Virus record (IMG/VR): IMGVR_UViG_3300029319_000252
Span: 1-32,506 of that record
Direction: 5' to 3' (one strand)
Length of the DNA stretch: 32,506 bases
Source: a virus
How positions within the stretch are numbered: position 1 is the stretch's first letter; every line of letters starts with the position of its first letter. The position numbers and the translations under genes are program-made. This document shows positions 12,934 to 14,833 of the stretch, one piece after another. The notes under the pieces were generated by a model that was not told the DNA's origin, ran no database searches, and worked only from the letters and a program-made list of their open reading frames with translations.

Positions 12934-13116
12934 TTATTTTCTGGCTTCTTCCAGTGCATCAAGACCCATAATGATAGCAAGACGCACAACGTCAGCCCGC
13001 CCAGCTTGCCCGCTTGGAAAGCGCCGGACGTCTTTGCTTAGGTCTTCCGCAACGCGGTCGGCCCGTTCTAATATCTCCGTTGAAATTTTGATTCCGTAAA
13101 CTGTTGACTCACTCAT
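12934..13116 (-). CDS. Small ribbon-helix-helix-like regulator
   Basis: This 60-residue protein has the layout of a ribbon-helix-helix DNA-binding protein. A short beta strand (STVYGIKIS) is followed by helix 1 (TEILERADRVAEDLSK) and helix 2 (AGRADVVRLAIIMGLDALEE). Such proteins bind palindromic operators as dimers, usually to repress their own promoter. Its ATG overlaps the methyltransferase stop (ATGA), so both come from the promoter region at 13953-14052. The perfect 14-bp palindrome there is the natural target to test. It is the only repressor-like gene in the window. Confidence 0.6.
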   Translation of the reverse strand: MSESTVYGIKISTEILERADRVAEDLSKDVRRFPSGQAGRADVVRLAIIMGLDALEEARK

Positions 13117-13952
13117 GGATTTATCTCCTTTAAAATTTGATTAACTCTCAGTCCCACTTGGTAAGCCACCTGCGGGACCACTGCGTTTCCTAGCGCCCTT
13201 ATCTGTTCTCTTCGACGTCCAGCCATCCCTCGGGGAAGCCCATCAACCACCGGACAAACTCTGGACTCAATTGACCACCCATGACTTCTGGCAATTGCGG
13301 GGAGTGCCCGTTCTCTTTGCGCCCTTTGCCGCTTTTCCAGTCTCGAGCGGCTGGGGTCGGAAGCATCATGCGCTTCACTGCGGTTGCTAGCCCGTCTCCG
13401 CTTGTCTTCGATGCGCCCTTTTTGTTGTAGTTCCCGCAGACCGTTGGCGTCGGCAACATCTCTCCAGGCAACGATGAAAAGGCGATCACGTCTGTGCCGC
13501 GCCCCGACGGCTGCCGCGCTGATAATATCCCATTCACAAGCGTACCCGAGCTGGGCAACGGAGCAGAGAACTTCGGACAATCCCCGAGAAGTGAGTGCTG
13601 GAACGTTCTCAGCGACCACGACTCGCGGCAGAGCCAGGCCAATGAGCCGGTGCATTTCCCACCAAAGGCCGGAGCGGTCCCCAGCCAGACCGGCCCCCTT
13701 TCCTGCGACGCTGATATCCTGGCAGGGGAATCCGCCGCAGATAACGTCGGCGCCTCTGATATCTTCAAGCTCAACTGTTCTGACATCTTCAAACCTTTCA
13801 GCGTCGGGCCAGTGTTTGGCTAAGACGCGCCTACAAAAATCATCTTGCTCAACTTGCCAGCAGGTACGCAGCCCCGGAATCGCTGCCTCAAGCCCCAGCT
13901 CGAGCCCACCGATACCGCTAAATAGTGAGCACATTTTAAGTTCTTTTTGCAT
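13113..13952 (-). CDS. DNA cytosine-5 methyltransferase
   Basis: This 279-residue enzyme transfers a methyl group from S-adenosylmethionine to carbon 5 of cytosine in a specific DNA site. Visible motifs are I (LFSGIGGLELGL, 9-20), IV (GGFPCQDIS with catalytic Cys77), VI (AENVPAL, 114-120), VIII (RHRRDRLFIVAW, 152-163) and X (RALGNAVVPQV, 252-262). The target recognition region between VIII and X is short (about 85 residues), so the protein is compact. No partner restriction enzyme is near, which fits an orphan phage enzyme protecting viral DNA. It is the first gene of the leftward early unit. Most of the gene also encodes an ORF in the +1 frame (13199-13786). Confidence 0.92.
   Translation of the reverse strand: MQKELKMCSLFSGIGGLELGLEAAIPGLRTCWQVEQDDFCRRVLAKHWPDAERFEDVRTVELEDIRGADVICGGFPCQDISVAGKGAGLAGDRSGLWWEMHRLIGLALPRVVVAENVPALTSRGLSEVLCSVAQLGYACEWDIISAAAVGARHRRDRLFIVAWRDVADANGLRELQQKGRIEDKRRRASNRSEAHDASDPSRSRLEKRQRAQRERALPAIARSHGWSIESRVCPVVDGLPRGMAGRRREQIRALGNAVVPQVAYQVGLRVNQILKEINP
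13199..13786 (-). CDS. Overlapping +1-frame gene inside the methyltransferase
   Basis: This 195-codon ORF lies wholly inside the methyltransferase gene in its +1 frame. The ATG at 13786 has AAAGG about 7 bases upstream. Its product is not random: it has SWSLRTFQHSLLGD and FSAPLPSSGTLVNGILS, then LPTPT (111-115), LPTPAARDWKSG (142-153) and LSPEFVRWLMGFPEGW (173-188). From memory, the 'LPTPtArDwksG...WlmGFP.gW' pattern recurs in proteins encoded with or fused to phage and bacterial cytosine methyltransferases. Here WLMGFP is read from the same bases as the VVDGLP stretch just before motif X. The function is unknown, perhaps a partner of the methyltransferase. A mere shadow ORF would not be expected to carry such motifs. 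Confidence 0.6.
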   Translation of the reverse strand: MSEQLSLKISEAPTLSAADSPARISASQERGPVWLGTAPAFGGKCTGSLAWLCRESWSLRTFQHSLLGDCPKFSAPLPSSGTLVNGILSARQPSGRGTDVIAFSSLPGEMLPTPTVCGNYNKKGASKTSGDGLATAVKRMMLPTPAARDWKSGKGRKENGHSPQLPEVMGGQLSPEFVRWLMGFPEGWLDVEENR

Positions 13953-13977
13953 TTTCTTTGTTTTAGCATTGAAAAGT

Positions 13978-14011
13978 ATTTGACGTCAAATGCAAAGCAT
14001 GTAAATATAAT
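13978..14011. promoter_or_regulatory. Divergent early promoter/operator with perfect 14-bp palindrome
   Basis: ATTTGACGTCAAAT (13978-13991) is a perfect palindrome between the divergent methyltransferase and early rightward units. It contains TTGACG on both strands, so both -35 boxes would overlap in one operator. Rightward -10 candidates are TAAATA (16 bases away) and TATAAT (14006-14011, 20 bases away). A leftward TAAAAC lies 18 bases away. Spacing is imperfect, so the exact boxes are uncertain. Confidence 0.5.
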
Positions 14012-14052: not shown

Positions 14053-14247
14053 ATGGATTTAGATGCTCAAACACTCGCCAAACTTACCGAAGCCCAGAAG
14101 CTTGTAGGTCAAAAAGTCCGGTCCCGGATTTACGACACAGAGAAAACAGTCTCCGAGGTATACGTTGTCGACAAGGATGATTGTGGCCTTGTTATTTGTG
14201 TTGACTTCACCGACTGCACTTATTGTGAGCTTTCTGACATTATTTAA
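14053..14247 (+). CDS. Small early protein, unknown function
   Basis: This 64-residue protein begins MDLDAQTLAKLTEAQKLVGQ and is the first gene of the rightward early unit. The start at 14053 is preferred over an ATG at 14023 because GGAAAG lies 4 bases before it, inside a 19-base leader that is repeated almost exactly before the next gene. The second half looks beta-rich (RIYDTEKTVSEVYVVDKDDCG) and ends CTYCELSDII, with one CxxC pair. No family is recognised. As a first early gene it may act on host takeover or on regulation, but nothing in the sequence proves this. Confidence 0.6.
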   Translation: MDLDAQTLAKLTEAQKLVGQKVRSRIYDTEKTVSEVYVVDKDDCGLVICVDFTDCTYCELSDII

Positions 14248-14278
14248 AAACCAAACCAAACAAACGAAAGAAAGAACG

Positions 14279-14833
14279 ATGACAAACAAGCAAGAACCCA
14301 ACCCCCTAGACGCTCCGACAATCACGCGGCTCTGTGATTACGTTTCAGACTTGAGCCGCCAGCTGGACGCAGCCCATCAAACAATCCGAGCAATTGACCA
14401 GGAACGCCGCGCGGAGGCCGAACGCCACCGCAAGCAAGTGGATAAGGAAATCATCCGTCTGCGCGGCGAGTTTGGCGAAGAAATCGTAGCTCTCGAAATG
14501 CAGCTTATGCACGAACGCAGCGAACGCGAAGCCGCGCAACGCACCATTGCAAGACTCGGCGGCGGCTTAGATGAGTTTGAATGGCCAGTGTGCGCAAACG
14601 ATGACTGCGTGAACGAGGTCAGAAGCAAGCGCAGCAACGCGCTCTACTGCTCCGATCAGTGTAAATGGGCAGTGCAAAAACGAAGAGCTCGCGCAAAGCT
14701 TGCACCGTGTCAAAATGATAAATGCCGCAAGAAAATAGAAGGCAGACGAAAGAACGCCCGCTACTGCTCCCCTCAATGCAAAAACGCCGCCGGGGTTCGC
14801 CGTCACCGCTCAAACAATGGCGAAGGTAAGTGA
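14279..14833 (+). CDS. Coiled-coil protein with two tandem zinc-finger repeats
   Basis: This 184-residue protein has a long N-terminal coiled coil (about 15-100, for example QERRAEAERHRKQVDKEIIR). Two zinc-binding units in its C-terminal third are copies of each other. Each reads C-x4-C, then about 13 residues, then YCSxxC followed by a basic tail: CANDDC...ALYCSDQCKWAVQKRR and CQNDKC...ARYCSPQCKNAAGVRR. The spacing suggests two treble-clef-like, probably DNA- or RNA-binding fingers that arose by duplication. The coiled coil should dimerise it, giving four fingers. The ATG at 14279 has the same leader as the previous gene. Function is unknown; a transcription or recombination factor is possible. 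Confidence 0.7.
   Translation: MTNKQEPNPLDAPTITRLCDYVSDLSRQLDAAHQTIRAIDQERRAEAERHRKQVDKEIIRLRGEFGEEIVALEMQLMHERSEREAAQRTIARLGGGLDEFEWPVCANDDCVNEVRSKRSNALYCSDQCKWAVQKRRARAKLAPCQNDKCRKKIEGRRKNARYCSPQCKNAAGVRRHRSNNGEGK

Follow-up and report, generated by a model that had tools for sequence, protein, structure and literature searches.

A phage C5-cytosine DNA methyltransferase gene with a second coding frame nested in it: very probably one enzyme split over two overlapping genes

M.EcoHK31I (YGGCCR) was reportedly found by Lee, Kam and Shaw in 1995 to consist of an alpha and a beta polypeptide. The beta polypeptide is also encoded within alpha, in another frame. M.SPRI and M.phi3TI of Bacillus phages are single-chain, multispecific C5 methyltransferases with modular target recognition domains. 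In M.EcoHK31I, motifs I–VIII and X were located on the larger subunit, to which the target recognition domain was also assigned, and only motif IX on the smaller polypeptide; M.AquI is a naturally split C5 methyltransferase with motif IX in the small subunit (PMC3404938). M.EcoHK31I has been employed as a naturally split methyltransferase (PMC3439449).

The window, that is, the whole stretch of viral DNA analysed here (32,506 nucleotides, IMG/VR record IMGVR_UViG_3300029319_000252), carries terminase, Prim-Pol/DUF3987 primase and AAA_24/DUF669 genes, so its source would be a tailed phage or prophage. We verified on its minus strand a nested ORF of 195 codons (13786–13199) lying in the +1 frame of a gene for a 279-aa C5-cytosine methyltransferase (13952–13113). 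The nested ORF starts with an ATG at 13786, its stop codon ends at 13199, and from a TTG at 13792 it encodes 197 aa. The products of the outer and the nested frame are called alpha and beta below. The preliminary description of this DNA had reported the nested ORF together with its ATG and an AAAGG, and its coordinates and strand were found to be correct; the motifs quoted there are also present, and the bases encoding GGFPCQDIS and VVDGLP in the methyltransferase indeed read ADSPARIS and RWLMGFP in the other frame. The features of the locus are as follows.

13113..13952, minus strand: putative alpha subunit, C5-cytosine methyltransferase of 279 aa, with motifs I–VIII and X and without motif IX (PF00145, E 1.6e-42)
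13893..13931, minus strand: alpha motif I, CSLFSGIGGLELG (sequence and alpha profile against HhaI)
13794..13798, minus strand: AAAGG, Shine-Dalgarno-like, 7 nt 5' of the beta ATG (sequence)
13199..13786, minus strand: putative beta subunit, nested +1-frame protein of 195 aa from the ATG (from 13792 with the TTG start; frame and constraint tests; PHROG 1008, E 2.1e-19)
13710..13736, minus strand: alpha motif IV, GGFPCQDIS, with the catalytic cysteine (C77 invariant)
13457..13786, minus strand: beta N-terminal block (ADSPA..SWSLRTFQ..SG.L.NG), overprinting alpha motifs IV–VIII (alpha-synonymous third-base identity 0.34–0.51 vs 0.29 before beta)
13467..13505, minus strand: alpha motif VIII, GARHRRDRLFIVA (H153, R155 and R157 invariant)
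13364..13456, minus strand: beta PTP module 1, LPTPTVCGNYNKKGASKTSGDGLATAVKRMM, putative recognition unit (cassette type found in 18 loci)
13277..13363, minus strand: beta PTP module 2, LPTPAARDWKSGKGRKENGHSPQLPEVMG, putative recognition unit
13220..13276, minus strand: candidate motif IX of beta, GQLSPEFVRWLMGFPEGW; alpha reads VCPVVDGLPRGM from these bases (profile–profile alignment, P 0.006; third-base identity 0.80)
13152..13196, minus strand: alpha motif X, ALGNAVVPQVAYQVG, 3' of the beta stop (sequence, alpha profile and alignment)

The locus is best read as a split C5 methyltransferase of the M.EcoHK31I kind and not as a methyltransferase with a regulator. Compared by motif layout, the two systems both have motifs I–VIII and X without IX in the large subunit and motif IX in the small one. 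They also share an out-of-frame nested gene for the small subunit, which we found in the window and in 254 of 257 loci. M.EcoHK31I belongs to a restriction-modification system, whereas the window gene appears to be an orphan phage gene; no partner restriction gene was found among the 10 window proteins scanned, and the 25 Pfam families seen most often in 108 neighbours of the bacterial loci included no restriction enzyme. Recognition was placed in alpha of M.EcoHK31I, but here it apparently resides in beta, in one to six modules. M.AquI (CYCGRG, alpha/beta) differs from the window in that its motif X is in the small subunit as well; this partition is seen in a minority of the relatives (phiBT1, Vash, L252 and L203), although theirs comes with a long overlap. 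As in M.SPRI and M.phi3TI, a variable number of short (about 30–42 aa) exchangeable modules lies between motifs VIII and IX, but those enzymes are single chains, whereas here the protein would be split and the modules are only putative specificity units. The working principle is already known from M.EcoHK31I, and the window adds a further case of it; possibly new are the breadth in phages, the location of exchangeable recognition-like cassettes in beta instead of alpha, and the variants with swapped frames. We found no paper on nested beta genes in phages among open-licence papers.

An open frame alone is weak evidence here, because two opposite-strand ORFs, presumably due to chance, cover the same region (13384–13983, plus strand, 199 aa; 13494–13823, plus strand, 109 aa). 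When synonymous codons of the window gene were permuted, the +1 frame contained 3.7 stops on average and zero stops in 0.2% of the shuffles. We rely on comparative evidence, namely stops, frame relation and synonymous constraint: beta is a real coding sequence and not a shadow. In 50 non-redundant alpha/beta pairs (alpha identity below 70%), the +1 frame held 3 stops, where shuffling of synonymous codons predicts 163; the +2 frame held 414. In two loci with one stop each (L017 and L084) the open beta fragment ends just within the N-terminal edge of the match, and the stops probably lie 5' of the true beta start; in a third (L043), also with one stop, it is found at the C-terminal end of beta. 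A few loci have a stop or a frame change in beta, and assemblies may carry frame errors. The 31 control C5 methyltransferases, 30 of them genes sampled from bacterial genomes and one E. coli Dcm, had 260 stops in the +1 frame compared to 259 expected, and none of them was open. One control (L295) has six +1 stops, yet it gave a weak partial match to the beta profile.

Loci were collected in three ways, via beta, via alpha, and via the beta profile in bacterial genomes. Beta overlapped alpha in exactly the +1 frame in 254 of the 257 loci in which both profiles were found (viral contigs, phage records and bacterial genomes). Some of the loci gathered via beta had been retrieved with WLMGFPEG patterns, and their conservation there is partly by construction; the third-base analysis described below was redone on the alpha-fetched set. 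When selection was by alpha only, beta was present in the +1 frame in 80 of 80 loci, these being the best 80 of 580 and close relatives. Beta was found in 17 of 299 genomes sampled from one phylum. In an Enterobacteriaceae-like family containing close Dcm relatives, 28 of 392 genomes had homologues of the window beta, and all 20 regions examined there showed +1 nesting. The same nesting was seen in the named phages checked, and one beta query among annotated phages returned 210 records, including Paenibacillus, Klebsiella, Escherichia, Salmonella and Mycobacterium phages.

The two frames were also searched separately in databases, alpha matching PF00145 and beta PHROG 1008 with the E-values given above. 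The beta family is that of PHROG 1008, a profile labelled 'DNA methyltransferase' (category other), which matches 72 of 72 aligned beta sequences; no beta family was found in Pfam or NCBIfam. A PDB sequence search gave only chance antibody matches with the single beta sequence and no match with the profile. Some depositors did annotate the nested ORF (K1G ORF30 as 'Mte8-like', Rani as 'g50 Internal gene', and Leyra), but these records state neither a function nor a partnership with the enclosing gene, and in many records only alpha is given. The preliminary description had named a protein family with the pattern ADSPA...LPTPtArDw...WlmGFP.gW and had proposed dual coding, perhaps widespread, which would go with reduced synonymous variation; the family is real, and the proposal agrees with the near absence of +1 stops in homologous genes, the frame relation across loci and the third-base identities described below. 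Its suggestion that C5 methyltransferase genes in general might carry this family in their +1 frame was not supported, since the controls place it in one subfamily only.

Selection along the two frames was examined in 82 sequences selected by alpha, at third bases of shared four-fold alpha codons, where an identity of 0.265 is expected. Outside the overlap, identity was 0.288 before the beta start and 0.326 after the beta end, and in the alpha-conserved overlap it was 0.402. Within the overlap it amounted to 0.34 at motif IV, 0.51 around motif VI, 0.40 at motif VIII and 0.42 in the variable part, and in the motif IX stretch it reached 0.802. Since position 3 of an alpha codon is position 2 of a beta codon, this pattern is as expected from selection on beta. 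In the motif IX stretch, the most variable alpha codon position is the first, corresponding to beta position 3 (0.473/0.283/0.381 by codon position), and each frame is about half identical; the alpha-only segments show the ordinary pattern in which alpha position 3 varies most (0.396/0.331/0.68). Cassettes of the variable region common to otherwise divergent betas were 71% identical in beta, 34% in the alpha frame and 35% in the unused third frame; the beta value is partly conditioned on clustering by beta similarity, whereas the equality of the alpha and third frames is not. Purifying selection was shown on both frames. From the identity, codon-position and cassette data, motifs I–III and X are under selection in alpha only, IV–VIII in both frames, the variable region essentially in beta, and IX again in both.

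Alpha contains motifs I, IV (PCQ), VI (ENV), VIII and X of C5-cytosine DNA methyltransferases, and its PF00145 match is confined to residues 6–179. In an alignment of the alpha profile with HhaI, motifs I–VIII were aligned and X weakly, and no motif IX was found in alpha. The AlphaFold2 model of alpha, for which, as in all structure predictions, the alignment rows came from the window and contig sequences, had a mean pLDDT of 82.6 with a confident catalytic domain, and it superimposed on M.HhaI with Z 24.7 and rmsd 2.8 over 205 aligned residues. Residues of about 180–242 are predicted to be disordered, and this is the place where the recognition region and motif IX would be expected. Beta modelled alone gave a pLDDT of 59.4 and a pTM of 0.21, and this model was not used for a fold search.

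Compared with other C5 methyltransferases, the beta profile matched best at motif IX (beta residues 169–189, P 0.006), in a short alignment of 21 columns with an hhalign probability of 6%, in which GGqLnPtwVEWLMGFPeGW of beta lies on R.LTpREaARLqGFPd.f. In the window the FP codons of beta precede the GN of alpha motif X by about 15 codons; in other C5 methyltransferases the distance is 17 residues. In the usual arrangement, recognized by pattern in 218 loci, motif IX is in beta and motif X in alpha. Both are in beta in L252, L203, phiBT1 and Vash, and both in alpha in L074 and L151; neither motif was ever detected in both chains of one locus. One relative, from a Pelosinus MAG (L229:2305-3561), has motifs I–VIII, three PTP modules, IX and X in a single ORF, which is either a natural fusion or a frame error of metagenome assembly. 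A shift of motif X to the beta frame was noted in phiBT1 (L001), Vash (L004) and Brevibacillus borstelensis (L252). The phiBT1 record remarks that the methylase 'may be inactive', perhaps due to considering alpha alone.

That alpha and beta form one enzyme is argued chiefly by the complementarity of motifs IX and X between the chains. Judged by the sequence comparisons, the locus very probably encodes a single C5-cytosine DNA methyltransferase in two overlapping genes, whose products would work as a heterodimer. Alpha, read in the outer frame, would fold as the catalytic domain with the SAM site, the catalytic cysteine and motifs I–VIII and X, and beta, made from its own ATG and Shine-Dalgarno (SD) sequence, would supply motif IX and the target-recognition modules, which is most of the small domain. 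Along the DNA the order is still that of an ordinary C5 enzyme (I–VIII, putative recognition region, IX, X); what is read one base over is just the middle, and in this stretch the alpha frame evolves like non-coding sequence. Beta begins far upstream, and its constrained N-terminal block over motifs IV–VIII probably docks on alpha. The heterodimer, for which both chains would be needed, would methylate specific cytosines in phage DNA, probably evading host restriction.

Between the N-terminal block and motif IX, beta carries 1–6 modules, mostly of 30–44 aa and starting with [LWF]PTP; the window has two. In close relatives of the window (L007 and L008), extra modules are inserted at one site, in frame for both proteins, and the flanking beta sequence is well conserved. 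The type of window module 1 (PTPTVCGNYNKKG.SK.SGDG) is found in 18 loci, most of which have divergent backbones. By their likeness to modular target recognition domains, the PTP modules are probably recognition units. We give roughly even odds to the wider idea that beta is an exchangeable multi-specificity subunit in a widespread class of split C5 methyltransferases, in which phages gain, lose and swap 1–6 recognition cassettes in an overprinted gene and specificity lies wholly in the hidden frame. If this is true, each cassette must keep the second frame open so that alpha reaches motif X, and the annotated alpha gene expressed alone would give an inactive enzyme. Should the cassettes prove to be recognition units, one could predict and engineer specificity, as in the specificity subunits of Type I systems.

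Other explanations were weighed against the split enzyme. In a passive shadow, the +1 ORF would mirror a conserved methyltransferase gene and yield no functional protein; some of the N-terminal similarity (ADSPA) does sit under the conserved alpha motif IV, and one methyltransferase gene with five +1 stops (G006:C1) still gives a weak beta-profile match. This null was rejected by codon shuffling, by the constraint on alpha-synonymous sites and by the control methyltransferases, in which the +1 frame is not open, and the cassettes of the variable region are conserved in beta while their alpha frame equals the third frame; a shadow is thus extremely improbable. The preliminary description had supposed that beta alters or blocks the methyltransferase. 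A separate regulator or inhibitor would suit an ORF that is separately started and strongly divergent in sequence, but we consider it very unlikely, as beta holds the motif IX that is absent from alpha and needed by catalytic C5 enzymes, this motif switches frames yet never occurs in both, and there are relatives with a single ORF or with IX and X in beta. The evidence points instead to a required part of the enzyme, namely motif IX and target recognition.

Programmed +1 (and –1) ribosomal frameshifting, by which a single polypeptide would join motifs I–VIII to the recognition region and IX, is suggested by the canonical motif order along the DNA and by the single-ORF relative L229. However, beta is constrained over alpha motifs IV–VIII, far 5' of any useful shift site, most loci would need two opposite shifts, and M.EcoHK31I is made as two polypeptides (PMC3404938). 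In addition, 24 of 75 loci have, 5' of the conserved block, a beta-frame start codon with an SD match of at least 5 nt; the expectation is 5.9, none of 200 shuffles gave more than 11, and the +2 frame gives 2. About two thirds of the loci are without a clear 5-nt SD before the beta start. The excess of beta-frame starts with an SD favours independent initiation of beta, and frameshifting seems hardly probable. It could also be that the methyltransferase is split but the PTP modules are not its recognition region, beta providing motif IX and stabilising alpha, and recognition residing in the variable region of alpha. The published prediction of the recognition domain of M.EcoHK31I in the large subunit (PMC3404938) would agree with this. 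The alpha variable region, however, is non-coding-like in the shared cassettes and predicted to be disordered, and the conserved exchangeable cassettes lie in beta, so this arrangement appears rather unlikely.

If the locus is a split enzyme, many annotations of phage and prophage C5 methyltransferases would describe half an enzyme, the half with motif IX and recognition lying in a frame often dropped by gene callers, and a missed beta would account for inactive or misassigned clones. The loci are also a large natural set for studying how selection acts on two proteins encoded by shared bases, with a clear frame-to-frame handover along the gene.

Several other arrangements were noticed among the loci and in the window. 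One contig (L177:205-1922) has two tandem alpha/beta pairs, the second in shifted frames. In L203:2050-2560 and L099:1740-2420 an insert splits the alpha gene near motif IV, and that of L203 encodes an HNH-like protein, which suggests an intron or homing element inside the overlapping region. A second alpha subfamily was seen in Escherichia phage K1G (L271), ESSI2_ev129 (L267), Klebsiella phage S9a (L275) and L372, where an N-terminal YYNE[IW]D (motif II-like) is followed by HFFAGIGG (motif I), and the PCQ of motif IV comes immediately after; by its motif order this alpha appears circularly permuted. Beta is still +1-nested in these loci and has PTP modules. In the window, the plus-strand ORF at 14165–14833 encodes 222 aa without a Pfam match; two zinc-ribbon motifs resembling CxxxxC...CxxxC (CANDDCVNEVRSKRSNALYCSDQC and CQNDKCRKKIEGRRKNARYCSPQC) lie close to its C-terminus.
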